Source: Phlyctochytrium arcticum (Eukaryota > Chytridiomycota > Chytridiomycetes > Chytridiales > Chytridiaceae). From it: a stretch of DNA of 64,000 nt. Below, one piece after another: positions 39,379 through 57,200 of the stretch. Below the pieces are notes generated by a model. The model worked only from the letters and a program-made list of their open reading frames with translations. It did no database searches and was not told the DNA's origin. The stretch's first letter is position 1. Each line of letters begins with the position of its first letter. The DNA is taken from the NCBI GenBank assembly GCA_025602905.1, contig JAHLKI010000019.1, positions 473,749-537,748 of the forward strand, written 5' to 3'. The position numbers were made by a program, and so were the translations under genes.

Positions 39379-42300
39379 AGGGTTGGAGCCATCGGCACTA
39401 CCGGCCCACGACAGAAACGTGTGCGGTGGCTCCTTGACAGTGGGGCAACAACAACGATAACCAAGGACCGGTCGTTGTTTACTTGCTATGGTCCTACACA
39501 GCGACGGGTAAAGGTGGCAAACTCGGTGATCATTCCAGCAACTGGGGAGGGAACAATCCAGATGACCACCCCGACTTCGGCCACTATTGAAGTTCCCGCT
39601 CTTCATGTCCCAGAAATTTCTACCAACTTGATGAGCGTTCGGGGTCTTGCGGATGCAGATATTATCACCACTTTTGCCAAGGACTCGGTCAAACTCCAGC
39701 ATGAGCTCACAAAGGAGATTTTGAACGTGTCGCCAACAACATTGATGTGGGATATTGATGTTACTCTTGCTCGTCCGGGTCAGTTTCGGGGGGTCGGAAC
39801 CGCGTATTCGGCTTCAACTATGGATACAAATAGGGATTTGCTTCCTGCTCTTCCAGGCGAAAACGGAAACATAGGCACCGCTTTTGCAACCGACACCTTG
39901 ATTCCTGGCGATGTTTCCGCTACAGCATCACCTCCATCACCATTCAAGAAAAAGGATGATCGTCGTCTCTGGCACCTTCGCACCGGCCATCCTCGCAATC
40001 GCGTCTTGCAACTCATGTCCAAGAAGTGCAAGAACTTTCCCACAACGCTTTCCACCGACGACTTCGAACCCTGCCCAGCGTGCTACACTGGCAAGGCACA
40101 TCGGGCTTCTTTTCCCCATTCGGAACGTAAAACTAGTCGACCATTTGAAGTCGTAGCTGCTGATCTCGTCGTCTTTCTGGATACACCAACTGAAGAAGGC
40201 TATCAATACTTCGTCCTCTTCACAGATCTCCACACTTCGTATACCTACGTCGCGCTACTCCTGGACAAAAGTGCCGGCTCAATCATCCAAGCTCTTCGGT
40301 GTTATCTACGTGATGTGGTGATGCGCAAAAATCCAACAGGACCACTGGTTGGCACATATCGCACGGACAATGGGAAAGAGTTCTGCAATGCCGAGATGCA
40401 ACAGTTTCTGTTCGAGTTGATAAGCCGTCATGAAACGACTCAGTCTTATACGTCACAATCCAATGGGGTTGCGGAACGGATAAATCGCACAATCTGCACC
40501 ATTCTTCGTTGCATTCTTCATCACTCTGGTCTTCCTCTCGTCTACTGGGGTGACGCTGCTCTTCATGCTGTGGACCTGTACAACATCCGCCCACGTCTCA
40601 CTGCCCCTCAGCAACTCTCGCCGTTCCAATTGCTCTGGGGTCGTCCCCCGGATGTTGGCCATCTTCGTGTCTTTGGTTGCAAAGTTTGGGTTCACACCGC
40701 CAAGGAACATCGCCGCGGAAAAGTCGAACATCGTGCCACAGAATGCCACTATCTCGGACGTTGTCATACCACGAAAGGCGACAAATTTTTGCAAATTTCA
40801 ACCAACGAACGCTTCATCAGCCGTGATGCTGTCCGCTTCATCGAGCGTCCCGTTACACTCTCACTTGCGCCCAGCACTCCCAACACCGAGACCACCGTCG
40901 ACCATGCCAATCACGTCGAAATCTTCCCCGGCTTTGCGGTTAGCAACATTCCTATAGACTTTCCCGGTGCTGAGACGGAGCCCAACACTGTTGACGAAGC
41001 CCGCCGTCGCCCAGACTGGCCTCTCTGGGATGCTGCAATCAAGGACGAACTGGCCTCCCTCGACCGTCATGGCACCTGGCGTGTACGTCCACTTCCGATT
41101 GACAACGAGACTGGTCGCAAACGTGTCGCTATTGGGTGTCGTTGGGTCTTGAAACGCAAACGCAATGCCAAGGGTGTCGTTGTTCGATACAAAGCGCGTC
41201 TTGTGGCTCTTGGATACTCGCAGAAGTTTGGGATCGACTACAACGAAACATTTGCTCCCGTGGTGAAAATTCAAACTATTCGTCTTCTCCTCGCTCTTGC
41301 CCTTCACCATCATCTTCAACTCTGGCACATGGATGTGAAAACGGCGTTCCTCAATGGTAAACTCAGTGAACGCGTCTGGATGCGGCAACCTCCCGGCTAC
41401 CCTCTTGGTGATCCTGACGACTTTTTGGAGCTCATGAAGACTCTCTATGGCCTCAAACAGTCCCCCCGCGAATGGTACTCTGTTCTCAAAACCTTCATGC
41501 TTTCTCTCGGTTTTACGGCTTGCTCGGGCGATCCGTCTTTGTTCTTCCGTCGTGCTCCTGATCTGGTTGTTGTCGCTGTTTATGTCGATGACATCATCAT
41601 AGCCACCAGCAATGACGATGCCCTCGAGGGGGTGAAACGTGAACTTAGCGCCAATTTCGAGATGACAGACTTGGGAACACTCGACTGGATACTCGGAATC
41701 AAGCTTGAGCGATACAACGACGGATGGCACTTGCACCAAGGACAGTATATCAAGGAGATGCTTGCAAAGTACGAGTCGGTTGATCCAACACCTTTGAAGA
41801 AGCGACGCACTCCGGCAAGTTCAACAAAGGCTACCATCACGGATACTGACAACGATCTGTCTCTTGAACCGACATTCCCGTATCGACAGATTGTTGGCAG
41901 CCTTATGTATGCAATGGTCGCAACTCGGCCCGACATTGCATTTGCCGTGTCTATGGTCGCCTCCAAGATGTCTACTCCCAAGCAGTCCGACAAGAAGAAA
42001 GTACTTCGCATCCTACACTTCTTGCGAGGTCAGCCTGATGTTGGTCTCTGGTTTCCGAAGAAAGCGACTGTTCCAACTCACCCTGCTATTCTTCCACATG
42101 ATGGTCTTATTGGGTTTTCTGATGCTGATTGGGGTGGTGATCAAACAAGTCGACGTTCTCGAACAGCCTACGTTTTCTTGCTCCACGGATCTCTTGTCAG
42201 TTGGGTCTCGAAACTTCAAGTAACCATCGCGCTTTCCACTACCGAGGCAGAATATATGGCAGCAACGCAATCAACGAAGGAAGCGATGTGGTTGAAGAAT

Positions 42301-42651
42301 CTGCTCAAGGAGTTAACCATTACCCAGTACTCTTCTGAACCTATACTTATCTTCGAAGACAACCAGTCGACTATCAAGACTATCAACAACCCAGTTGGCC
42401 ACGCACGGATGAAGCACATCGACATCCAGCACCACTACGTCCGCGAACGTGTAGCTGCCGGCGACGTTCGTTTCGAGTACATGCCCACCGCTGATATGCT
42501 TGCCGATGCTCTTACGAAAGCTCTACCATTTGATCAGTTCTCATCAATATTTCGACGCTTGAACGTCATACCTCCTGTCCCAACTCAGAAGCCTACGAAC
42601 GCCAGAAAGCCGAAGGACCTTGTCGTCCCAGTCTCCGATGCGCAAAGGTGA
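39379..42651 (+). CDS. Copia-B Pol (protease-integrase-RT-RNase H)
   Basis: Continues directly after the gag UGA in the same frame; there is no plausible ATG near the start (the first clear motif is only ~15 codons in). Protease WLLDSGATTTI; integrase zinc segment (HLRTGHPRN) and core with a DNGKEF strand; RT with YVDDIIIA (about 41581-41604); RNase H with FEDNQSTIKTI and ADMLADALTKAL at the C-terminus. Over 1080 codons without interruption suggests the single UGA is either recent damage or a functional recoding site. Confidence 0.93.
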   Translation, partial: RVGAIGTTGPRQKRVRWLLDSGATTTITKDRSLFTCYGPTQRRVKVANSVIIPATGEGTIQMTTPTSATIEVPALHVPEISTNLMSVRGLADADIITTFAKDSVKLQHELTKEILNVSPTTLMWDIDVTLARPGQFRGVGTAYSASTMDTNRDLLPALPGENGNIGTAFATDTLIPGDVSATASPPSPFKKKDDRRLWHLRTGHPRNRVLQLMSKKCKNFPTTLSTDDFEPCPACYTGKAHRASFPHSERKTSRPFEVVAADLVVFLDTPTEEGYQYFVLFTDLHTSYTYVALLLDKSAGSIIQALRCYLRDVVMRKNPTGPLVGTYRTDNGKEFCNAEMQQFLFELISRHETTQSYTSQSNGVAERINRTICTILRCILHHSGLPLVYWGDAALHAVDLYNIRPRLTAPQQLSPFQLLWGRPPDVGHLRVFGCKVWVHTAKEHRRGKVEHRATECHYLGRCHTTKGDKFLQISTNERFISRDAVRFIERPVTLSLAPSTPNTETTVDHANHVEIFPGFAVSNIPIDFPGAETEPNTVDEARRRPDWPLWDAAIKDELASLDRHGTWRVRPLPIDNETGRKRVAIGCRWVLKRKRNAKGVVVRYKARLVALGYSQKFGIDYNETFAPVVKIQTIRLLLALALHHHLQLWHMDVKTAFLNGKLSERVWMRQPPGYPLGDPDDFLELMKTLYGLKQSPREWYSVLKTFMLSLGFTACSGDPSLFFRRAPDLVVVAVYVDDIIIATSNDDALEGVKRELSANFEMTDLGTLDWILGIKLERYNDGWHLHQGQYIKEMLAKYESVDPTPLKKRRTPASSTKATITDTDNDLSLEPTFPYRQIVGSLMYAMVATRPDIAFAVSMVASKMSTPKQSDKKKVLRILHFLRGQPDVGLWFPKKATVPTHPAILPHDGLIGFSDADWGGDQTSRRSRTAYVFLLHGSLVSWVSKLQVTIALSTTEAEYMAATQSTKEAMWLKNLLKELTITQYSSEPILIFEDNQSTIKTINNPVGHARMKHIDIQHHYVRERVAAGDVRFEYMPTADMLADALTKALPFDQFSSIFRRLNVIPPVPTQKPTNARKPKDLVVPVSDAQR

Positions 42652-43985: not shown

Positions 43986-44078
43986 CAAAAATTTACGTAA
44001 GCAATGTCCGACGGTCCGAACAATTTCCGCGACAACTGATGGGTGCTATACTGATGTAAATTCTAATGTAAAAGAGTG

Positions 44079-44146
44079 TGACACGGTGCATATTGACACT
44101 GACCACCCACCCGGGTGGGTGGTCAGTGTCAATATGCACCGTGTCA
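44079..44146. repeat. 68-bp perfect palindrome
   Basis: Two 34-bp arms, TGACACGGTGCATATTG...CCACCC and its exact reverse complement, meet at CCCGGG with no spacer. Both ends carry TGACACG. A perfect, spacer-less palindrome this long is unstable and suggests recent formation or a replicative/terminal function of the viral element. Confidence 0.97.
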
Positions 44147-44362
44147 GCCCTTTGATGTCTATATAGGGATTGAATAGCTGCATACAGTTTAATGATATAG
44201 TTTAAAATTGACACGTTTTTGAACCGTGTCAAGAGATCAGGCCTGTATTCGGAGATCTATCGTTAGGATCTCGCCCGTGTCAAAAGCTCCCTATATAGAT
44301 ACATAACTATACTAATCCGATCTAAGATCGTGGCAACTATCTATCAATAGGATTCTGACACG
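44079..44362. repeat. Cluster of six TGACACG motifs
   Basis: TGACACG occurs at 44079-44085 (+), 44140-44146 (-), 44209-44215 (+), 44225-44231 (-), 44276-44282 (-) and 44356-44362 (+). The third and fourth form a short inverted pair around TTTTTGAAC. Mixed orientation and spacing suggest binding sites near an element end or origin. Confidence 0.85.
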
Positions 44363-44500
44363 ATCCGAGCGGCCACATACTCATTCGATGCTAACTCTAA
44401 TCTATTAATAGAACTTTGACCAGATCCAAAATCGAGTCAAATCCGAGGGCAACCGCCCACAACTTGAATCTTGTGGCATATTCGCACCGAAGGTCCCCCA

Positions 44501-44675
44501 TCTACATGTCGCTAAACTTTTAGCAAAAAAGTAGGAAAAATACCACAAACGTAATAAACGTTGAAGTGTGTTTTACGTTTGTGGAAAAATCACGACTTTT
44601 TCAAATTGCTAAATACGATGAATATGATGAAGTGTGTGTGGAAGTGTGAATCAGTGACCCTCACCGCGACAAAAC
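44501..44675 (-). repeat. Viral intergenic repeat A with hairpin
   Basis: About 170 bp shared with 45194-45368. It includes a perfect 12-bp inverted repeat CCACAAACGTAA...TTACGTTTGTGG (44542-44584) nested inside AAAAGTnG...CnACTTTTT arms, then GTGTGGAAGTGTGAATCAGTGACCC. It lies just past the stop of the 120-aa ORF, where a transcript 3' end would be. Confidence 0.8.
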
Positions 44676-45023
44676 GTAACGGCCTCGACTCTCACACTTA
44701 TCTATCACTATGACGTCATCCGCCGCTGGATTCTCCACTGTCACGTTTCTGAGCCAAACATCTAAAGTCGTCTGGTATGAATCGCGAATATCCATCGGTA
44801 ATGCCTTGATATCGACGCGGCTTTGTTTCTTGATGTTGAACGATAGTTTCTTGGATATTCCGCCGTCCTTCACTGATAATGAAGTTATATTCTTCTTCTT
44901 CATTTCTTGCTTGATATATTCTAAAGCTGCGGTGTGCTTCTTGACGACTCTATTCGCCGCCTCATATTCTGCTGATATGTCAAGGTTGATAAACTCCAAT
45001 ACTCGATCCTCCAATCGACTCAT
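44661..45023 (-). CDS. Viral hypothetical protein (120 aa)
   Basis: ATG at 45023, overlapping the stop of the upstream small ORF by ATGA (translational coupling style spacing). Lys/Glu-rich, mostly helical N-terminal half with possible coiled coil, then a beta-like C-terminal part. No family recognised. Its 3' end runs into repeat A. Confidence 0.6.
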   Translation of the reverse strand: MSRLEDRVLEFINLDISAEYEAANRVVKKHTAALEYIKQEMKKKNITSLSVKDGGISKKLSFNIKKQSRVDIKALPMDIRDSYQTTLDVWLRNVTVENPAADDVIVIDKCESRGRYVLSR

Positions 45024-45193
45024 TGCTCTTTGATGCTATTTGGCGCTAACTTGATTCTAACTGAGGCAATGTCAGGCAGGTTCGTCGCTTTTATAGAACC
45101 GGATTGTATCGATACCTTTTCTTTGTATGGATAGGAAAGAACCAATTGAATCTCTTGCCGCTTATTCGCTCCGAGGTCAATGCTTCGTACCAT
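45020..45193 (-). CDS. Viral small hypothetical protein (57 aa)
   Basis: First in-frame ATG at 45193; the frame is open upstream into repeat B without another ATG. Beta-strand-like pattern (QEIQLVLSYPYKEKVSIQSG). Overlaps the next gene by four bases. Repeat B lies directly upstream, so this may be a truncated remainder of a larger gene. Confidence 0.45.
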   Translation of the reverse strand: MVRSIDLGANKRQEIQLVLSYPYKEKVSIQSGSIKATNLPDIASVRIKLAPNSIKEQ

Positions 45194-45368
45194 GCTACAT
45201 GTCGCTACTTGTTGCTTAACTTTTAGCAAAAAGTCGGAAAAATACCACAAACGTAATAAACGTTTAAGTGTGTTTTACTTTTGGGGAAAAATCACGACTT
45301 TTTCAAATTGCTGAATATGAGGCAGTGTGTGGAAGTGTGAATCAGTGACCCTCACCGCATCAGAACGA
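45194..45368 (-). repeat. Viral intergenic repeat B
   Basis: Second copy of the ~170-bp repeat. Central inverted repeat is imperfect here (ACTTTTGGGG instead of ACGTTTGTGG) but the outer AAAAAGTCG...CGACTTTTT arms are better conserved than in copy A, as is the GTGTGGAAGTGTGAATCAG segment. Confidence 0.8.
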
Positions 45369-45452
45369 AAGGGAATGAAATATTCACTTTTCAGGATCTA
45401 TCCCTATCATCTCGATACGGATACCTCACACTCTCTATTCTTTCGTGATTCT

Positions 45453-45941
45453 TTATTGATTCTTGTATGATTCGGGCATTGATTTTTTCATTAAACACAC
45501 ATCTTGACCTGCTATTGAGATTCTAAACTCTTGGTCCAGATCTTTAATACGTTCTACTAATATGTGACTGTTCGGACTGGGTATTTTCATAATTATGAAT
45601 ATTTCTTTTGGTATTACAAGTTTTTCACCCTTGCAAAAACTGATTGTCAGACTTCCATCATAAGTAAAAAATAATGGAAACAGATATGACATAAGCGAAT
45701 TTGCATATTTCTTGAGGTTATTGAGTGGTATTCTTATTTTTTCCAAGTCCTGATCAACTCTCGTAAATTCAATTACAACATCAACTTTCTTTAATTCATT
45801 TTCAGATAGCCCGGATAGATGTAATGAAGATAACAAAGCACATTGAGACCAAGAGACGATCTGAAAAAGTCCCTTTTCATCTGGTTCGATACGCAACAAC
45901 GAGATTTTTCCTGTATCTCTTTCCATTTTAACATTGTTCAT
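45453..45941 (-). CDS. Viral hypothetical protein (162 aa)
   Basis: ATG at 45941; AT-rich codon use. Alternating hydrophobic pattern suggests mainly beta structure (jelly-roll-like spacing is possible but not demonstrable by eye). Contains a basic KGEKLVIPKE turn and a Lys-rich C-terminus. Lies between repeat B and the tRNA-like gene. No family recognised. Confidence 0.6.
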   Translation of the reverse strand: MNNVKMERDTGKISLLRIEPDEKGLFQIVSWSQCALLSSLHLSGLSENELKKVDVVIEFTRVDQDLEKIRIPLNNLKKYANSLMSYLFPLFFTYDGSLTISFCKGEKLVIPKEIFIIMKIPSPNSHILVERIKDLDQEFRISIAGQDVCLMKKSMPESYKNQ

Positions 45942-46010
45942 GTTTTTTATTCATTGGGTTACAAACGCGGTAATTTGAAGCTTTTTATATTTCAAAGTCT
46001 GTTATATTTT

Positions 46011-46082
46011 CGGCCGGCAGGGATTCGAACCCTGCATCGGGAATGCGATGAAACCTTATGATAACCTTTACACTACAGCCGG
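46011..46082 (-). tRNA. tRNA-like gene, possibly tRNA-Glu(UUC), degenerate
   Basis: On the minus strand the sequence has a 6-bp acceptor stem (CGGCUG with CGGCCG), a D-arm typical of Glu/Asp tRNAs (UAGUGUAAAGGUUAUCA) and a perfect T-arm (GCAGGG-UUCGAAU-CCCUGC with universal UUCGAAU). The anticodon loop best reads GUUUCAU, i.e. anticodon UUC, but the anticodon stem pairs poorly. It may be a viral tRNA, a relic of integration into a tRNA gene, or a pseudogene. Position between two viral genes favours the first. Confidence 0.6.
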
Positions 46083-46138
46083 ATTTTTATGATTATATTC
46101 TTATCTTTATGTTTTTTTTTAAATATTCAATTTCTCGT

Positions 46139-47389
46139 CTAGATCACATCGACTAGTGTGCTAATTGAGAGTGTGACGTTCTCAGAATACTGGAATACCA
46201 TGCGACAGTTGGTAGAAGGTTGTTGGCCTGATTCGTGGATAGTAGTGATTTCAAGAATCGAATCAGTGTTAACAAATGACAAGGCCGCACTTGAAGATTC
46301 ATCGATGCTTTGATATGAGAAACCTGCGCTAAAGAACTTGTTTTGATAATCTGATAGAGAAGGTAAATCCATCTCACCCACTGCAGACAAGTAGTTACCT
46401 TTAATCTGCGAAATGAGCAGTGTTTCTGGATTGGCAGGACCGTTCAAAAATCCAGTAGTACCATTCGGCGTTACAAGGTTACCGATTTGGATGAACCGCT
46501 CTTTCAAACCTTTAGAGGAGGATATTTCATTCTTGTCTAGTGCAGGATTAGCAAGAAGGTCTTCATCGACAAAGGAAAAGTCAAAGGCCTTCAAACTTCG
46601 AACACCATTCATGTGAATACGGTAAGTTTGACGAGTGGATCCATTACAGGCCAACTCTTGAGTAGAATACCGTGTGTAATCGTAGAACAGTTCTTTACCT
46701 GCGGCAATCGCACGCTGAACAGCGAGCTGGAATTCGGGGGGCGGTTGGTAGGTAGGTGTCATGATGGAAGTTTCACTAAATCTCACTTCATCAACGACAT
46801 TGTTTTTGAATGCCTGAGCAGGATCGCGCAAGGTGATATAGTAATCTAAAGTTTGATTCGGCGTTGCCCACACGTGGAACAATGAGTCATTATCTGGATG
46901 GTGGAATCCTATAGGAAGATGGGTAGAACACCCAGCTACACTGTCTGTTTCAAAAATATTCGTAACACCATATCCACTGAGTGACTTCAAGAATGTCTTT
47001 TGCGTCTTTGGTAGATACTTGTAGACAGTCTTGAGATATTCGGGATAGTTGTCAATCTTTTGCAATTCTTTCGAACCGATACAGACTCGTACCGATTGAA
47101 TCAAAGATTCCAAGCCGAGACTGCTGTTGATGACCGTATTCCCTGAAACTGGTTGCCCATTCTTGAATACTTGTACTTTGAAATTCAACAGAAGATTCTG
47201 CAATTGAAGGGATCGAGAAGCGTCGTGCAATGAGATTTTAATAGGTGCTGCTTGTCGATTCTTGGACGTAAATGTATCTTGCCCGATACAATACCACTTG
47301 TTAATACTTTCCAGGCGGGGGTTGCTGTACGGTTTTGAAAAATTTCGTGTCGCCGTTAACCAGTTGCGGGGTACTTGATTATCGGTCAT
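46139..47389 (-). CDS. Probable major capsid protein, double jelly-roll type (416 aa)
   Basis: ATG at 47389 after a very AT-rich leader. The sequence has the feel of polinton-like/virophage capsids: an N-terminal strand-rich part with NLLLNFKVQVFKNGQP, a conserved Trp-rich loop (FHVWATPNQTLDYYITLRDP), a charged YDYTRY stretch, then a second beta-rich half with long loops and a strand ending SENVTLSISTLVDVI. Its neighbours (coiled-coil protein, probable penton, FtsK-type ATPase) are those expected in a capsid module. Length is short for the class but plausible. Basis: pattern and context, not a search; a structure prediction should show two stacked jelly rolls. Confidence 0.62.
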   Translation of the reverse strand: MTDNQVPRNWLTATRNFSKPYSNPRLESINKWYCIGQDTFTSKNRQAAPIKISLHDASRSLQLQNLLLNFKVQVFKNGQPVSGNTVINSSLGLESLIQSVRVCIGSKELQKIDNYPEYLKTVYKYLPKTQKTFLKSLSGYGVTNIFETDSVAGCSTHLPIGFHHPDNDSLFHVWATPNQTLDYYITLRDPAQAFKNNVVDEVRFSETSIMTPTYQPPPEFQLAVQRAIAAGKELFYDYTRYSTQELACNGSTRQTYRIHMNGVRSLKAFDFSFVDEDLLANPALDKNEISSSKGLKERFIQIGNLVTPNGTTGFLNGPANPETLLISQIKGNYLSAVGEMDLPSLSDYQNKFFSAGFSYQSIDESSSAALSFVNTDSILEITTIHESGQQPSTNCRMVFQYSENVTLSISTLVDVI

Positions 47390-47436
47390 GATTTATGCTG
47401 TGGTTGTTTACTATATGAATAAAAAATAAAAAACAC

Positions 47437-47901
47437 TTATCCGAATATTCCACCAAAATCATCATCATTTGAATATTGTGGAACAGGTGTTGCTTTTCGT
47501 GTAGCAACTGGTTTCTTTGGAATAACAGCCTTCTTTTTGGTATTCGATGTTGAAGAACGTTCCGCTTTTTTACGCGCCCTTTCTTTTTTCTTTTGTTGCT
47601 TTTCTTGTCTCTTTTTCTCTTCTAATTCATTTACCAAATCATAGGCATCTTGAATACGTTTTCTTTCATCTTGTATTCGTTTCTCTTGATCTCGTTTCTG
47701 TTGCATTTCTCTTAATTGTCGAGTCCGTTCTTTTTGCGCTTTGATCATATTCGCTGTTTGTTTCTTTTTCTTCACTTCTTGAATTGGTTCTGGTGAAGGA
47801 GAAGGTTCTTGTTCAACGGGTTGTTCAATTTCTTGTTCAACTTCTTCTTCAATGGGTTGCTCAGGCTCGATTGGTAGCTCATTTTCGTTATGGTCCGACA
47901 T
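47437..47901 (-). CDS. Charged coiled-coil protein (154 aa), viral
   Basis: I start at the ATG at 47901; an upstream in-frame start at 47940 overlaps the minor capsid stop and lacks support. The N-terminus is acidic with Glu/Pro/Gln repeats (EEEVEQEIEQPVEQEPSPSP), the middle ~60 residues are a Lys/Glu/Arg coiled coil, and the C-terminus is basic then ends DDDFGGIFG. Such a small basic/acidic protein between capsid genes could be a DNA-condensing core or scaffold protein; that role is inference from context. Confidence 0.65.
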   Translation of the reverse strand: MSDHNENELPIEPEQPIEEEVEQEIEQPVEQEPSPSPEPIQEVKKKKQTANMIKAQKERTRQLREMQQKRDQEKRIQDERKRIQDAYDLVNELEEKKRQEKQQKKKERARKKAERSSTSNTKKKAVIPKKPVATRKATPVPQYSNDDDFGGIFG

Positions 47902-47929
47902 TGTTACTTGTATTCTACAAAAAAATAAT

Positions 47930-48649
47930 TTATTGAACATCTGAAATGTCGTCGGCTATCAAGAATCTCACTGTTAATGGTGAATTCAGTGCTAATTCTT
48001 CACCAGTTTGTGAATCAATTAGATGAAACTCAACCTTGCTAATCGTATCGTTACAGGGTAACCATTCCGAATCGTTGGTGAATGTAATGACGTCCCCAAA
48101 CGAATCGGGTGACAGTACACTGATAACGGTACTCGCGGTATCATTGTAATCAGATAGATATCTAACGCTTGGAACATTGATATTCGATGTCAGTAAAATC
48201 GGGTAGGAACCAGATAGATTCACACTATTTTTAAATGTGACAGTCTTTGCCATAGGCGATGCAGTTCGATTCGAATACCCAGAGACAGAATATGCGGTAG
48301 TTCCCTCCATACCTGGCAAAATTTGAAAGTCTTTGTCGACAGCTGTTATAGTAATCTTTCGAGTAATTTGGTTGTAACTACTTGAATATGCTTGACTCCC
48401 AGCTGTGGTCATCGCGGCTGCTACAACTTGAGGATAGTTTGAGACAGTGTAGTTGCCATGAGGAATACTGGCTTTAATAGTGTCGGTATTCCCGTCCTCT
48501 TTGAAGGCGAATACGTTATTGGTATTGTTGATCAAATCGTAATCTTGAATAAAACTCACTGACAGGATTTTCACAAATGAAACGTTCCGCTTCTCTATAT
48601 TGAACGATCGACGCTTTAGAGAACAATAGGTCCACTCATTGATGGTCAT
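47930..48649 (-). CDS. Probable minor capsid (penton) protein, single jelly-roll (239 aa)
   Basis: ATG at 48649, 33 bp from the divergent ATPase start. Mostly beta. It holds a pattern I associate with minor capsid/penton genes of polinton-like viruses: IPHGNYTVSNYPQVVAAAM followed by a YNQITRKITITAVD strand pair, and a C-terminal strand ...VRFLIADD. Together with the adjacent ATPase and major capsid this completes a morphogenesis module. Confirmation needs a profile search. Confidence 0.6.
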   Translation of the reverse strand: MTINEWTYCSLKRRSFNIEKRNVSFVKILSVSFIQDYDLINNTNNVFAFKEDGNTDTIKASIPHGNYTVSNYPQVVAAAMTTAGSQAYSSSYNQITRKITITAVDKDFQILPGMEGTTAYSVSGYSNRTASPMAKTVTFKNSVNLSGSYPILLTSNINVPSVRYLSDYNDTASTVISVLSPDSFGDVITFTNDSEWLPCNDTISKVEFHLIDSQTGEELALNSPLTVRFLIADDISDVQ

Positions 48650-48682
48650 GATGTCTTTTGTTATTATCTAAGTAATAAATAA

Positions 48683-49204
48683 ATGACGACGTACAAGGTG
48701 AAGCCCATATTTAATCCGAAAGCTATTGAAAGGGATCCTCGCGTCCCTGAGCCGTTACCGTCGCATCCTCTCTGCTGTACGCTTGTCTCACCAAGGAAAG
48801 GGGGCAAGTCTGCATTAGTTGCGGGATTGATTCAGGATGTATACGCTAACAGATTCGACAAGATTATCATAATGTCAGATACTGTGCGATATGATACTAG
48901 TATTCAACAATTAGCAAAGACGACAAAACACAAGAATATTTATTTCATCGATGATGTCTCAAATACTAGTATAGCAGAAGTAGTTAAAGAACAACAGGAG
49001 AATGATTGTGAGGATCGAATACTGCTTTTTATCGATGATGCAGGGGACAGTGCGAGATCAAAGGATTTGGCAAAACATTGTTACCCCGGCCACTACGACA
49101 AACAAAACGAAGTGTGCCTTTGTTTCTCACTAAAAAGGGATGATTCGTATTGTTTGTATGATGTCGTTCGCAAACTTTACACATGTAAGGTGCGGTTGCT
49201 GTGA
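48683..49204 (+). CDS. Packaging ATPase, FtsK-HerA/A32 type, C-terminally truncated
   Basis: ATG 48683. Walker A SPRKGGKS at residues 36-43, and Walker B ILLFIDDAGD at about 113-122, then a conserved LAKHCY segment. This family pumps viral DNA into preformed capsids of DJR viruses and normally runs to ~230-300 residues. Here recognisable sequence ends near residue 136 (about 49088). The remaining ~38 codons to the stop are read antisense through the primase gene and are not ATPase. The sensor and C-terminal motor elements are therefore missing; it is presumably non-functional. Confidence 0.78.
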   Translation: MTTYKVKPIFNPKAIERDPRVPEPLPSHPLCCTLVSPRKGGKSALVAGLIQDVYANRFDKIIIMSDTVRYDTSIQQLAKTTKHKNIYFIDDVSNTSIAEVVKEQQENDCEDRILLFIDDAGDSARSKDLAKHCYPGHYDKQNEVCLCFSLKRDDSYCLYDVVRKLYTCKVRLL

Positions 49205-49958
49205 TGATGAACATATTGTCACGATTGGGACTTTGGTCAATTTGAAACTGTTCCAGATAGTATTCACTCTTCTTAAACATGTCTACATCATTGTTATTGA
49301 GCGGCGCGTTGTCCACTGGCGATGAAGTGAATTCTTGACGGCTAAAGTGTTTCTCATGTTTTTCCATAGTGGTCTGAATATTGCGAAGAATCCATTGTGG
49401 CAACGGAGCCATTTCCACGCGGTATTCGTTTTCACGATCATCCCAAATATAACTATTTGGTCCTTTGGTGCTAGCCGGGCACATGACGTACCCACCCTGT
49501 TTTCTGATATCGACTGCGATCAATTTATCATTGAGAGACATGCAAGCGGTCCAGTTCTTTAACATGGATTCTTCGGCAATACCCGTCAATTTGAAGTAAT
49601 AATGCTTTCCGCCTGAAGGTGTAGTGACTGAGAGAGTCTTGGGAAGGAATTCGTTTTCTGAAACCAAAGTGTTGAAATCATCAATCCCCGTATTCTCAGA
49701 GTATTTCTTAGTACTAGACTTGTTTGCGGGGGGCTTATTGTCAATATCAAGCACAAGATATTTCGAATTGATGATGAGACCCAAATTACATTCATCATCC
49801 CATTTCTCTCTCTTTTGGAAATCACGTTCAAAAGTGTATTTTCCTGCCTTCCATAAGCCCAAAGGTCGCTTGTCTTTGACACTTGCTGGTACGGGATTGA
49901 ACCAGGGGTTGTAGGCTCTCATCTTTTTGGCGACCTTGAATAGCTGAGTTTGGACCAT
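49029..49958 (-). CDS. Archaeo-eukaryotic primase domain protein, C-terminally truncated
   Basis: ATG 49958. The primase-polymerase fold is clear: LVLDIDNK (catalytic Asp71, Asp73), SGGKHYYF (His119) and VDIRKQGGYV (Asp150), spaced as in bifunctional prim-pol domains. A possible zinc element follows (CKVCERHH...LRFVC). Full-length viral versions continue into a D5/SF3 helicase; here coherent sequence stops near 49090, exactly opposite where the ATPase stops, and the last ~15 codons are antisense ATPase. The helicase half is lost. Role: initiation of viral DNA replication. Confidence 0.82.
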   Translation of the reverse strand: MVQTQLFKVAKKMRAYNPWFNPVPASVKDKRPLGLWKAGKYTFERDFQKREKWDDECNLGLIINSKYLVLDIDNKPPANKSSTKKYSENTGIDDFNTLVSENEFLPKTLSVTTPSGGKHYYFKLTGIAEESMLKNWTACMSLNDKLIAVDIRKQGGYVMCPASTKGPNSYIWDDRENEYRVEMAPLPQWILRNIQTTMEKHEKHFSRQEFTSSPVDNAPLNNNDVDMFKKSEYYLEQFQIDQSPNRDNMFIITATAPYMCKVCERHHTNNTNHPFLVRNKGTLRFVCRSGRGNNVLPNPLISHCPLHHR

Positions 49959-50091
49959 GACTTTGTGTTGTATTCAGTACAAACTAAAATAAAGATTTTA
50001 GTGATGTCTCAAACTCAAACGCACTTATATAAGTTTTTTGGACCACTTCCTATCAATATTTTATTGTGTCATATATAATACAGAGGTAAAA

Positions 50092-50289
50092 ATGAAGCAA
50101 AGATTTCACTATATTGCCATAGTTCGAGTCAGCAAAGATACAAAATGTATCGTCGAGGCCAAAACGATGCGTGAATTGGCCAAAGAACTGAATATTTCAT
50201 TGTCTACTACGCAACATCTGATCAACAATATTCAAAAAGCACCTTCTATGTCAAAGCGGATTCATATTGAGCGCAAGTTGCAAAATTGA
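50092..50289 (+). CDS. Small helix-turn-helix-like viral protein (65 aa)
   Basis: I prefer ATG 50092 over the upstream in-frame start at 50038, which begins in AT-rich leader. The core TMRELAKELNISLSTTQHLIN is a typical HTH (helix, turn at Asn-Ile-Ser, recognition helix), like those in homing-endonuclease-associated or phage regulators. It could regulate viral genes or bind the inverted repeats that follow immediately at 50290-50520. Confidence 0.55.
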   Translation: MKQRFHYIAIVRVSKDTKCIVEAKTMRELAKELNISLSTTQHLINNIQKAPSMSKRIHIERKLQN

Positions 50290-50520
50290 GGTAGCAATTT
50301 GGGTAGCAAATTTTTATTCGAGTAGGGAAGAATATGGTGATGGTCCCTACTCGAATATTTCATTAGGTAGCAAAATATTCTGAAAAACTTTTGTAAAAAA
50401 CAAGAAGTTAAAAAAAAAAAAATGAAAATTTTTTGTTTGGCCTACTAAAAAATAGTTTTGGAAGAATATTTTGCTACCTATGAAATATGCTTCCCCACTC
50501 GAAACAGCAATTTGCTACCA
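50290..50520. repeat. Nested inverted repeats, AT-rich viral intergenic region
   Basis: Three sets: ATTCGAGTAGGGA (50316-50328) with TCCCTACTCGAAT (50344-50356), 13 bp perfect; GGTAGCAAAATATTCT (50366-50381) with AGAATATTTTGCTACC (50463-50478), 16 bp perfect and extendable to ~24 bp; and outer copies of TAGCAAATT near both ends. An A-run of 13 lies between the larger arms. Origin, operator array or transcript-end structure are all possible. Confidence 0.85.
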
Positions 50521-50544
50521 GTATCAAAATGAGGATCGACCCGC

Positions 50545-50570
50545 AAAAGACCCATACCGGGGTCTTTTTT
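50545..50570 (+). terminator. Terminator-like hairpin with T-run
   Basis: AAAAGACCC-ATACCG-GGGTCTTTTTT: a 7-9 bp stem followed by T6, 25 bp before the methyltransferase start. Shape is that of an intrinsic terminator, though in a eukaryotic virus it more likely marks a transcript end or is incidental. Confidence 0.45.
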
Positions 50571-50594
50571 GGTTGAATACAAATAAAGGAACAA

Positions 50595-51137
50595 ATGAAG
50601 CCATTTGTATCATATGTTGGTTCAAAGACGAAAATTATGAATCACATTGATGCCAAGTTACCCTCAGTCATTAATCGCTACTTTGAACCATTTGTGGGTG
50701 GTGGAAGCGTCTTGTTTCATATAGCAGAATCATACAAAGATATTAAGCAGTATTTCATCAATGACAAGGATGCGAATATGACAAACCTGTATAGCGCTAT
50801 AAGAAACAACAAGAAAGAATTGCTTCATGAGCTTTCATCGTATTCAAAAGACAAAGAATCATTCCAAAAGTTTGTGGAGATATTCAATCATGATGAAGAG
50901 CTGAATACCATAAAGAGAAGCGCGCTATATTTGTATCTATTGAAACTATCATTCAACAACAATTTGAAGCACAAGAATGGCAGGATTCATCCGACGTATT
51001 CCGCGAGAAACGCTGCTGCAAAAAAGATTTACAATCCGGACCACATTGAAGGAATTGCGCCATTTCTACAACAAGTGAATATTTTCAACCTGGACTATAT
51101 CAAGTACACTTTGGATCACACTTTCCAGGTACTTTGA
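50595..51137 (+). CDS. D12-class DNA adenine-N6 methyltransferase, truncated
   Basis: ATG 50595. N-terminal motif YVGSKTKI (SAM-binding motif X of Dam-type enzymes), motif I FEPFVGGGSV (residues 31-39), NDKDANMTNLY, a helical target-recognition region (KRSALYLYLLKLSFNN) and VNIFNLDYIKY just before where the catalytic DPPY should come. Coherent sequence ends near 51110, so DPPY and the C-terminal part are absent; the final codons are MULE-B sequence. Viral Dam-like enzymes mark viral DNA, for example against restriction. Non-functional as it stands. Confidence 0.85.
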   Translation: MKPFVSYVGSKTKIMNHIDAKLPSVINRYFEPFVGGGSVLFHIAESYKDIKQYFINDKDANMTNLYSAIRNNKKELLHELSSYSKDKESFQKFVEIFNHDEELNTIKRSALYLYLLKLSFNNNLKHKNGRIHPTYSARNAAAKKIYNPDHIEGIAPFLQQVNIFNLDYIKYTLDHTFQVL

Positions 51138-52680
51138 CGAGACGATGATATGACTCCAAGGGATTGGTGGATGTCATTTGCAAAAGAATCGGCGACTGTT
51201 GGCGGGCGGCCATGGACCAGCACTCCATATTGGCTGCATTGGTCCAATTCCTTCTTAAGTACTTTGCGATTCCGTCAGGTGCCCCAGCGGCAGCTTCTTC
51301 GACAAGGGCTCGGGCTCCCACACGAGTTGTTTTGTTCAACGCATGAATCATTATTTTGAAAGTTTCATGATGGGACGACGTTCGCCTCATCAGTATTCTT
51401 AGTAGGTGCACCTAAAGATCAAATTTAGATGTATGACAAGTTGCGGAAACTTACCACTTGAGTACCTTGCACCACTTGATGTGGACTTCTTCTTCTCCAG
51501 CCTGCATTCCGCGGAAAGTCTTTTTGATTCCGTTTCTCTCAATATTGGATTGGTCAATCTGGATATACCTCGGCTGCCAAACTTTTCCTCCCAAGGCAGC
51601 GATCATGCTACGCAGGCTTTGGAGCCCCTGATGCACCGACTCGCCGTTCTCGACACTCACGTAAAACTGACCGGCTGGAATCCAACTGCCAAATTTGTTC
51701 CGCACCAAAGTCGTGAAGAGGCGCAAATCGTATTTGTTCGTTTTGTGCGTCGAATCAAGAAGAACCAGATAGCTGTTGTCACGGAGGGTCTCCAGTCCCT
51801 TTACAGTAGCAAACGCAAAGCCTTCTCCGGCGTGTGTGTCCTCTTCCTCATCCGAATCAGCATCAACCGAATTATTGGTGGCCGACACCAGAAAGCGTTT
51901 GACCTGGTAGCCGGCGCCCTCCAACTCTTGAATAGCCTCGTTGATGTCTACAGTCTGAGAGGCAGGGGTGACGGGCTGGTCCTTACGCTGCTTCCATCTT
52001 TTATTCCACACGTCCCGCGCGGACACCCGGTCCAGCCCCAAGGCCTTCCCACGCGCAGGAGAATACTTCTGAAGCATGATCTCGGGGAGCGCCGCAGCAA
52101 CATCCTTGGGTGCATAGGGCATCGCTGCTTCCGCCTTGATGATATCCGAAGCATGAGAGCAAAGCCGTTGGTCGTCGACATCAGCAAGCGTGTGGTTTTC
52201 ATGCTGCGGGAAGTTTGGGTGCATCTGAACAATGACGACGTCGGTACCTGGACTTTCAATGACCTGCAGGCGGGCTGGGCATGGGATGGGAGTGAGAACG
52301 GAAGATATCCGCCGCTTCTTTGAACTTTCACCCTCAGTCTCGGGTCGTTGGGTGGATGATTTCCTGTGCTTGGCAAGTTTACATTTGTACGTTGTTGTCT
52401 TGACGCCGTCTGAATCGCGGGTGTGTGATCCAAACCAGTTCCACGCATTGTCGACCAGCTTCCAATCTTCTTTGTAGCGGCTTCGCGCTGCCAAATACTT
52501 GATTGTTCCGCACGAATGTTTCCTGCGTAAAGCTGTTGAGACATTCTTGTTGTGCGAGTGCGTTGTAGGAGACTGATCTTGGATCTTGAGTCTTGACTTC
52601 AACAGTTCAAAGTCCGAGATGCACCTTTCATGTTGTAATTTGTCTTTTTGGGAATATAAATTTCCAGCCAAACAAACCAA
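51111..52680 (-). pseudogene. MULE-B: truncated Mutator-like transposase gene
   Basis: A different MULE family from MULE-A. The frame is open from 52680 without an obvious ATG. It encodes a FLYWCH/zinc-like N-terminus (CGTIKYLAARSR...KCKLAKHRK), then the DDE core: LLDSTHKTNKYDLR (first Asp) and IQIDQSNIERN (second Asp). A 54-nt intron (51465-51412) joins KWCK to VHLLRILMRR, after which TSTNPLESYHRLVK near the exon end at 51133 likely holds the Glu. A second intron would start at 51132 but the gene then meets viral DNA. The C-terminal half is missing. No TIR recognised on either side. Confidence 0.8.
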
Positions 52681-54231: not shown

Positions 54232-57200
54232 CACCCACTCTTACCGACCCTGCAACCTTTTGCAAAGACAGTCTTTACAGAACTGCGAACACTTCCTCCC
54301 TCCCGCGGCGAGGACGATTTTCAGATTGAAATCGAGGGCGTGGCCAAGCCACTGTCCGTGCCTCTCCGCGCAATGGGACCGAATGAGCTCGAAGAGCTCC
54401 AGCGACAGATCACCTTGCTCCTCGCCAAAGGGTGAATTCGCCACTCCTCGAGCCCATGGGGCGCCGCCGTGCTATTCGCGAAAAAGAAGGACGGTTCTCT
54501 TCGCTGCTGCATCGACTATCGAGGCCTCAACAAGCAGACGAAGCGCGCAGCTCGGCTAAATTCGGCAAAGGAGTTTGGTCGCCACCGGACGGTCGGCAAG
54601 AAGTGGTTTTCGCAGCTGGACATCAAGGATGCCTATCATTGCGTCCGCATCAAGGAGGGTGATATCCAAAAGACCGCATTCAAGACCCGCTTTGGACACT
54701 TCGAGTACGTTGTAATGCCCTTTGGGTTGACCAACGCACCGGCCACGTTCCAGCGGATCATGAATAAGGTTTTTGGGTCCATGTACGATGATTTTGTTAT
54801 CACGTATATGGATGACATCCTTGTTTTCTCCGACACGCTTGAGGATCACAAGCGACATGTCGAGACAGTGCTCAAGGCTTTAGAGTCTAGTGCACTCCAC
54901 GTCAAGCCGTCCAAGTGCGCTTGGGCGACCTCTGAGGTTGAATTCTGCGGCCACATGATGGGCCAAAATGGCGTTCGGATTGCCGAAAGCAAGATCGCCG
55001 CCGTGCAGAACTTTGCGGTTCCTAAGAACTACAAAGACATTCAGTCCTTCTTAGGTTTGACGAATTATTTGTCGGCTTACATCGACAAGTATGCTGAGAT
55101 CGCGCATCCCCTATCGGAGCTCCAGTCCGGTAGTAAACCCTGGCAGTGGGGCGATGCGGAAATGACGGCGTTCAAAACGCTGCGAGAAAAAATTTCAACG
55201 GCCCCAGTTCTTTCGCCGTTCGATCCCAACAAGGAAGTCTATGTCTTCTCAGATGCTTCAGGCTTCGCCATTGGCGGCTGGATTGCCCAACCCGCTAATG
55301 AGGACGACGTTATGCCGTCCCCCCTACCCACCACTGTGGGAGGCTTCCAAAACCTGCCAAGACTCCGGCCCGTCCTGTACTTTTCTAGGAAGTTGCAGGG
55401 CCCCGAGACGCGTTACCCGGTCCATGAGCAGGAACTACTCGCTCTCGTCAAAGTCCTGAAATCCAACCGGCAGTTCCTTGTGGGACGGCACTTCCGCGCT
55501 TTCACCGACCACAAATCCCTGATTTATCTTCAGGAGCAACAGCATTTGAGTCGGCGTCAGGCGAATTGGGTTGAATTCCTTCAACAGTTTGACTTTGACA
55601 TCGAATATTTACCTGGCGAATGGAACACCGTGGCAGATGTTCTTAGTCGCAACCCGTACTACGCCCCTCGCTGTGCGGATTGTGCACAACGCGTTACGCT
55701 CAATGCTATCGCCGTGCACACATCCAAACTGCGAACGCTCGAGCGCACCGCTCCCGGCAGTACAGTGGTAGTCACGGCCAACGCCGCCCGTGCTCGTAAA
55801 CGCACGAAGAAGCAGATCGCCCAAGTGATCGCCCAACTGGAGATCCCTAGCGATCCACTGGATTGGGCCAAGTTAGTCCGCACGGATGACTTCGCACTCC
55901 GGACGTTCAAGACGTTGGAAAAAAAGTCGGAAGCACCCGAGACACTGACGGTGGCAGAACGGCGTTATTCCATAGAGGATCTTTCTGCGGACACCGACGG
56001 CGCTACGCTGCGGTTGCTACGCTATGAGGGTCGTCTCTATGTTCCTGATGCTCTCCGCGGTGCGGTGCTGGCGCAATACCATGACTCACTCCTTACGGGT
56101 GGCCATACGGGCAAGCATTCGACTTTCGGACGATTGCTGGAGAAGTACTTCTGGCCTACTATGGCACAGGACGTTGCTCAATATGTGCAAACGTGTGCTA
56201 CTTGTCAGCGCTTCCGTGGTCCTGCCCGAGGAGTCGGATTACTCCGCTCCTTAGTGCCTGATCGGCGCTGGCACACGATTGGAATGGACCTAGCTTCCTT
56301 ACCCCGCACGGAATCGCGGGGAGGGAAGGATAGCCATAATGGCGAGTACTACGATGCCGTGCTGGTTATTGTAGACTATTTGTCCACTCGTGTGTACCTC
56401 ATTCCATGCAACATGGAAATGTCGAGCAAGGAGCTTGCATACCTTTTTACGGCGCACTTCTTCAAAAATGAAGGAACTCCAAAAGTGATCGTTAGCGATC
56501 GTGACAGCCGCTTTCTGTCCGAATTCTTTAACAGTAACAGGGACAGGCAGAATAGGTCGTAGAGAAACTAGTTGTATTCAGGTCCGGGTCTGTCCTCCCG
56601 CTCTGGGGCGAGGACAGGGGCCCTTTTTATAACAAAATCAACAGAGGTCTACTGGCTAAACTAAGTACAGAAACTCCGCAATGCGGTCTCGGCTAATTAT
56701 CAATTACAGATGTCTATTACTAAGAGTGCGCTTTCGGTTCTACGTATCCTAAATCAAGTCCGCACTGAGGCTGACGGTTAGCGGGGTTCGGGCAGTTCCA
56801 AATGACCGAACTACAACAGACAGCGCCGAGCTGTCACAAATTCTGGCAAGCCTTTACGGCCGGTCTCGGCATCAAGCAAGAGGTTGCTACAGCTCGACAT
56901 CAACAGACTGATGGTAAATGCGAACGCAAAATCCAGTCTGTCAAGAAAGTCTTGAAGGTGTATATCGACCGAGACGGCTCTAACTGGGTTGATATTCTTC
57001 CACTATTGGAGTTTCATCACAACTCGACGCCGACAAGTACCGGTTACGCCCCGTTCATGATCGACAAAGGTCGCCTGCCGACAGTCTTCGCTGAATTCAC
57101 GACGCGTGAAGGTCTCCAAGAGATCTCGGTGCCAACAAAGCAACAAGTTGACCGATTCATCGAAACACTTCGCGAGACTGAACGGATCGTGCAACAAACG

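Follow-up and report, generated by a model that had tools for sequence, protein, structure and literature searches.

A stretch of 64,000 nucleotides from the chytrid Phlyctochytrium arcticum (the window: C19:473749-537748 of a 31.48-Mb genome in 91 contigs, where C marks a contig label and L, below, the label of a fetched locus) contains a block of closely spaced open reading frames (ORFs) in AT-rich DNA (GC per kb 0.345-0.424 across 44001-51000, against 0.48-0.52 in the adjoining two kb on each side), and raises the question of what virus left it there and in what form the genome of that virus ended. A preliminary description, made from the letters of the window, had taken the block for the remnant of a small double-jelly-roll DNA virus in a zoosporic fungal genome and had proposed a search for copies elsewhere. 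That identification is supported here: the AT-rich, closely packed block is borne out by the ORF listing and the GC values, every ORF that had been named is present in the ORF list of the window, and less damaged copies have been found. The block is probably what remains of an integrated polinton-like virus of a chytrid, a linear double-stranded DNA (dsDNA) virus that was hairpin-ended when replicating and whose palindromic ends were inserted by an RVE integrase. The palindromic termini in two inverted forms (flip/flop) were absent from the preliminary description and were found in the follow-up.

Complete elements and their palindromic ends

The sequence shows directly where the elements begin and end, that they are flanked by 5-bp target-site duplications (TSDs), that their ends are palindromes, and that the centre of the palindrome is inverted from one copy to another. 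Eight two-ended elements, with TSDs read by eye, lie at C15:210291-237079 (26,789 bp, TSD GACAT), C4:348968-373844 (24,877 bp, CCGTT), C23:393495-420542 (27,048 bp, GTTAC), C26:370323-395460 (25,138 bp, GTAAC), C18:177965-203194 (25,230 bp, GTCAG), C41:118916-151950 (33,035 bp, GACAT), C40:7173-32114 (24,942 bp, CCCTG) and C3:1361088-1387132 (26,045 bp, TGCCG). With the palindrome pair C3:238232/277431 (TSD CATAG), which brackets a more distant family (capsid gene at 260099, 44% identity; ATPase gene at 249638), exact 5-bp duplications are present at 9 of 11 tested end pairs; C1:1308257-1324039 was left out of the count because it shares both flanks with the C3:1361088-1387132 element, being one and the same insertion. 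The terminal repeats of the C15 element, in which alone their length was measured, span 1,118 bp with zero differences, and since they are identical within one element, recent integration is likely.

These elements have the terminal inverted repeats (TIRs), the 14-40 kb size and the target duplications of polinton-like viruses, together with an FtsK/A32-family ATPase in its full-length homologue and the RVE integrase of polintons, which carries a chromodomain (L017:4198-5463; rve E 2.2e-12, Chromo E 5.1e-15). The fuller form is about 25-27 kb long and encodes a double-jelly-roll capsid protein, a packaging ATPase, a PrimPol-D5 protein, the RVE-chromodomain integrase, a tyrosine-recombinase-like protein and a long fibre-like protein. 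Matches in the genome itself, some of which are pieces of one gene, number 59 for the capsid gene, 51 for the ATPase, 25 for the prim-pol and 16 for the recombinase-like protein, with near-full capsid copies ranging from 92% identity down to about 24%; genes are broken in some copies, such as the recombinase-like gene at C2. Seven of the ten fetched places (C45 twice, C2, C1, C15, C23 and C17) share the gene order recombinase-like protein, RVE integrase with chromodomain, proline-rich protein, small ORF, ATPase, 239-aa protein, coiled-coil protein, capsid protein, of which C8 and both C40 arms have a partial version.

Thirty full ends were read as palindromes of 56-69 bp, with arms fully complementary outside five central bases in 28 of them. 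They fall into family A (12 ends, 68-69 bp, ten of them perfect palindromes), family B (seven ends, 65 bp, with a five-base asymmetric centre), family C (two ends, 56 bp) and family D (nine ends, 61-63 bp); TG/CA ends and the motif GTGCATA are common to all four, while the cores differ, each being again palindromic. Five arm positions vary within family A, and the change is compensated in the opposite arm in all ten perfect ends (10 of the 12 full sites, the imperfect 69-bp ends on C9 and C29 being left out of this count). The sole surviving end of the window copy is such a palindrome, at 44079..44146 (2 x 34 bp, perfect, without a loop, TG...CA), and homology to four other compared copies ends at its outer edge. 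The block delimited by the preliminary description is real, with its viral left end at 44079 instead of 43990. The sequence class of this palindrome has 12 full sites in the genome and four further sites that are half palindromes. An Rfam match to MIR2600 at 44093-44132 is the palindrome itself and falls below the gathering score.

A genome scan with the shared motif gave 86 sites, against one for a reversed control; 50 of the 86 were classed, of which 45, with 27 distinct sequences among them, were palindromic at a threshold that admits the short, borderline C14:601757 (7 of 9 core pairs). Not all motif sites are claimed for this virus: four of the five non-palindromic sites resemble one other repeat by eye, and a palindrome-ended locus, L066, has no capsid match. 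The four sites in question (C2:707991, C2:1495513, C3:71734 and C9:383642) are alike and carry the motif GTGCATAT...ATATGCAC. L066 (C13:607500-617400; no capsid match at C13:607560-626662) carries chromodomain ORFs and the gene of a DUF5906 protein, and part of it is 54% identical to the fibre-like protein of the C15 element; its 334-aa protein was considered as a second tyrosine recombinase, a reading that gained no support when profiles were compared (probability 0.30 on a scale of 100).

Flip/flop centres and the case for hairpin telomeres

A base-by-base comparison of two copies with unrelated outer flanks, at C45 and C23, shows eight differences along 12,570 bp, and five of these are adjacent (TGGAG versus CTCCA) and coincide exactly with the palindrome centre, the other three lying elsewhere. 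In family B the centre, read outward, is TGGAG at the right ends of C45 and C3, and CTCCA at both ends of C23 and at the left end of C3; C1, which has the same insertion as C3, has the same centres. The C45 end lies at C45:20147-20211 and the two C23 ends at C23:393495-393559 and C23:420478-420542. The single central base of family D is A at the left ends of C26 and C41, at the right end of C18 and at C17, and T at the opposite ends of these three elements and at C16. The flip/flop inversion that characterises hairpin-telomere viruses is thereby present, in integrated copies, and suggests hairpin telomeres. The replicating genome would be linear, with both ends folded back into hairpins whose stems measure about 28-34 bp; replication through such an end would yield an extended palindrome with its centre in either orientation, and would renew the arms from one another so that they stay complementary; the RVE integrase would insert this extended form, joining its TG...CA ends to the host chromosome with a stagger of 5 bp. 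Mirror-image derivatives are known from hairpin-ended genomes, and the element at C40:7172-32115 (L021-L024), whose two inverted arms of 7,121 bp each are identical except for one base, resembles them.

The same ends could belong to an ordinary polinton-like element, with the palindrome merely an integrase binding site at open termini and no hairpin. The TG...CA ends directly inside 5-bp TSDs, as for an RVE integrase site, fit this explanation, as do the GTGCATA motif and TG/CA ends that the families have in common; but a binding site needs neither cores that differ among families yet remain complementary, nor a centre inverted between two near-identical copies, nor the mirror-image derivative. 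No protein-primed polymerase family was matched among the ORFs scanned (here and below, not all ORFs of an element), whereas PrimPol-D5 is present, and open ends are on the whole unlikely. The preliminary description had also entertained a satellite virus. Virophages, too, have a comparable size, a double-jelly-roll capsid, a packaging ATPase and a primase-helicase, but nothing in this analysis, in which no giant virus was sought, shows dependence on one or a satellite, and a virophage-like lifestyle is judged distinctly unlikely. For the cysteine protease of virophages, no Pfam protease family was above the cut-off among the ORFs scanned, and a weak UCH_1 match (E 0.0058, below the cut-off) falls in the recombinase-like protein. 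Inversion of the centre in the host chromosome after integration, by cruciform extrusion and recombination, is more doubtful still: long palindromes can extrude cruciforms, and the four half sites show that palindromes change within this genome, but C1:1308257-1324039 and C3:1361088-1387132, which carry one insertion, still agree in the orientation of the centre at either end, despite their differing lengths.

Several observations weigh against a hairpin-ended virus as the source of the block. The multi-base flip/flop contrast is limited to one family, B; the single-base contrast of family D is weaker evidence, since it could also be a point change; and the palindromes of family A are without an asymmetric centre, so that the window's own end cannot show the two forms. 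The sequence was read from integrated copies only, in which no closed end is seen, and from the assembly without reads, palindromes being hard to assemble. Two family A ends have an extra central base, one of them also an arm mismatch, and a mismatch between the arms occurs at one family B site. At the C4:900748/925826 pair only four of five TSD bases are alike, and at C6:103490/127695 the palindromes are embedded in an inverted repeat of greater length, with mutually inverted outer flanks, where a boundary cannot be set. The recombinase-like protein has 16 matches against the 51 of the ATPase, the structure models of the capsid protein are of low confidence (pLDDT 53.7 and 64.5), and the direction of the prim-pol gene varies among copies, as described below. 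With these points counted, a hairpin-ended, integrating virus nevertheless remains the favoured source.

In the recombinase-like protein the residues R, K, R, H and Y are invariant in all five aligned sequences, a set that we take to be the catalytic motif of tyrosine recombinases (YREC). No library recognises this protein, and no resolvase family was matched among the ORFs scanned; by its motif it is a speculative candidate for a telomere resolvase. Poxviruses have a D5 primase-helicase, and it is rather likely, if less so than the hairpin-ended virus itself, that a small double-jelly-roll lineage combines covalently closed flip/flop telomeres, poxvirus-like PrimPol-D5 replication and RVE-chromodomain insertion of opened palindromes, and so forms a link to the hairpin-ended large DNA viruses. 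Should the ends prove to be hairpins, such telomeres would extend beyond large DNA viruses to a small integrating relative, with a bearing on the origin of poxvirus-type replication.

The window copy: deletion and gene content

The preliminary description had read the block as a compact gene set of 7 kb. The genes are there, but their compactness is that of a longer element shortened by internal deletion: on the ATPase side of a join the window matches L014 up to 49077 at 94.9%, from 49075 it matches the prim-pol DNA of L018 at 91.9%, the parent sequences have ACA in common at the join, and both genes are truncated there. By arithmetic from the matches, the deletion amounts to about 7.9 kb relative to the C45 arrangement. 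The window copy would have lost some 8 kb, from the 3' part of the ATPase gene through the 3' part of the prim-pol gene, by a join at this 3-bp microhomology; the stretch corresponding to the RVE integrase is deleted, and that gene is gone. The methyltransferase frame ends at 51137, the sequence from 51132 resembles L026 (75%), and no second end of the window copy was found; the far end was probably lost near the point where transposon-like DNA now starts. The block is thus the remnant of an element of about 25-27 kb, with one end kept, about 8 kb of its interior gone and its far end gone.

That the block is instead a chimera of two elements, the capsid part from one and the prim-pol and methyltransferase from another, is the least probable alternative: the join at 49077 is abrupt in its change of best match, the C45 copy, too, yielded no second end, and the prim-pol gene runs in the capsid direction in the window and at C45 but in the opposite one at C15, C23, C26, C18, C41 and C2, yet both genes lie between one pair of ends at C15, C23, C26, C18 and C41, the unusual direction is common to the window and C45, and the prim-pol segment could have inverted between blocks on either side of it at C45 that match window 50289-50526 in opposite directions.

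Reading from the surviving end, the window copy begins with two minus-strand ORFs, gene 4 (44664..45023, 120 aa, in a cluster of 8, with a homologue in both terminal repeats of the C15 element) and gene 9 (45456..45941, 162 aa, conserved in copies, in a cluster of 6). A tRNA-Glu-like sequence at 46012..46083 (minus strand), read from the sequence on the 3' side of the window's capsid gene, is also found downstream of the capsid gene in L002, L005, L006 and L007; its T arm and D arm are recognisable, its anticodon region is irregular and variable, and neither ARAGORN nor Rfam calls it.

The intact frame at 46139..47389 (minus strand) encodes the 416-aa protein that the preliminary description had called the capsid protein, proposing as a test whether its predicted structure has two jelly rolls. 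In the structure models a first roll is clear and a second moderate, which agrees with a double-jelly-roll fold; sequence families gave no support in Pfam, PDB or PHROG searches, and PDB sequence searches with the protein and with the capsid alignment returned nothing meaningful. From its models and copies it is predicted to be a double-jelly-roll major capsid protein. Its shortness, which had been thought to indicate a distinct lineage, does not by itself show one. When seven intact capsid genes are compared in 21 pairs, the ratio of nonsynonymous to synonymous substitution (dN/dS) lies at 0.044-0.151 in 20 pairs, dS being 0 in the last one (L004, with an internal stop, was left out, and L008 alone stands for the C40 arms), as expected of genes kept functional.

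Upstream of the capsid gene, on the same strand, lie the genes of a charged protein of 167 aa (47437..47940), coiled-coil-like as judged by eye, similar to a stretch that one NCBI gene model (P0001) shows fused to the front of the capsid protein, and of a 239-aa protein (47930..48649) with no Pfam or PHROG match, which by position is a probable minor capsid (penton) protein. The 5' part of the A32/FtsK-type packaging ATPase gene (48683..49077, plus strand; ORF 48683-49204, 173 aa) corresponds by match to residues 1-133 of 236. Because the gene is truncated, its Pox_A32 match is weak (E 0.002, below the cut-off), but the full-length homologue at L017:7409-8116 is recognised (34.0 bits against a cut-off of 22.8, E 2.7e-8). 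The prim-pol at 49075..49958 (minus strand; ORF 49029-49958, 309 aa; Pfam Prim-Pol E 3.9e-17) corresponds by match to residues 1-296 of a PrimPol-D5 protein of about 820 aa, and the 3'-truncated D12/Dam-family adenine methyltransferase at 50595..51137 (plus strand, 180 aa; MethyltransfD12 E 7.7e-22) ends at profile position 171 of 253; both matches are above the cut-off, and the preliminary calls of a packaging ATPase, a prim-pol and a Dam-type methyltransferase are supported. Between the latter two lie a small helix-turn-helix-like ORF (50092..50289, plus strand; Pfam matches below cut-off) and GTAGCAA repeats at 50291..50520 (three and two copies on the two strands), in a region that contains an 18-bp inverted repeat. 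Similar GTAGCAA blocks flank the prim-pol on both sides at C45, with one more in L010, and we would guess at a possible origin or control region.

In the C15 element the PrimPol-D5 protein is 818 aa long and is accompanied by a Dam-like protein; a fibre-like frame of about 1,887 aa extends over two adjacent loci, and its larger part scores exactly at the avian adenovirus fibre cut-off. The element also carries a response-regulator receiver protein (L052:1640-2047, above cut-off) and an F-box-like protein (L052:1160-1600, below cut-off). In the window, the viral block is surrounded by retroelement-like ORFs: long ORFs at 39421-42651 (+) and 54469-56562 (+) resemble Ty1/copia and Ty3/gypsy polyproteins, as judged from their translations. 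An ORF for a MULE-type transposase lies at 51454-52680 (-), near the broken viral end.

Comparison with known viruses

Fungal dsDNA viruses are barely documented, according to the part of PMC10640383 available, and here one fungal genome holds dozens of related capsid and ATPase genes. A chytrid-integrated polinton-like virus is nevertheless of an already known kind, and the group is already documented. The polinton-like virus described from Spizellomyces punctatus in the available part of PMC7805220 (Bellas and Sommaruga 2021) is likewise integrated in a chytrid, and GenBank third-party annotations name MELD viruses of the chytrid fungus Powellomyces, of which the hexon of MELD virus 5 is 43% identical to the window capsid protein and the FtsK of MELD virus 2 is 54% identical to the full-length ATPase of L017. 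These two viruses are known here by name and one protein each, and a literature search found no paper on the records. Relatives are present in Powellomyces, Gaertneriomyces and Thoreauomyces, and contigs of 18.8-24.9 kb underlie the proteins P0003, P0009 and P0013. IMG/VR scans with the window capsid protein, one ATPase, the capsid and ATPase alignments and the palindrome pattern gave no relatives.

As far as the available part of PMC7805220 goes, the paper describes TIRs, TSDs of 5-7 bp for three elements, and genes for a tyrosine recombinase or an RVE integrase, with chitinase in 52% of the S. punctatus group; no chitinase was matched among the ORFs scanned in the P. arcticum elements. The cryptophyte polinton-like viruses of PMC12220804 are alike, in the part of that paper available, in their expanded families, long TIRs, RVE or YREC integrases and TSDs. 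Those with RVE typically have 6-bp TSDs, against 5 bp here, and RVE and YREC are alternatives there, whereas an RVE-chromodomain integrase and a YREC-like protein occur in one element in P. arcticum.

The palindromic flip/flop termini appear to be new within the literature searched: the terms 'palindrom' and 'chromodomain' have no occurrence in PMC12220804, 'palindrom' has none in the main text of PMC7805220 and does not occur in PMC10120064, and no paper on palindromic, flip/flop or hairpin ends of polinton-like viruses was recognised in a search whose coverage leaves out most subscription journals and preprints. The nearest counterparts are among large viruses. Vaccinia virus has an incompletely paired terminal hairpin in two inverted forms (PMC8956199), and PMC11788076 cites hairpin termini of the flip-flop type in asfarviruses, poxviruses and phycodnaviruses, in the parts of these papers available. 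The elements of P. arcticum likewise have inverted terminal repeats and two inverted forms of the putative hairpin, here as read from integrated copies; but those viruses are large, and the P. arcticum element, of 25-27 kb, is integrated with 5-bp TSDs.

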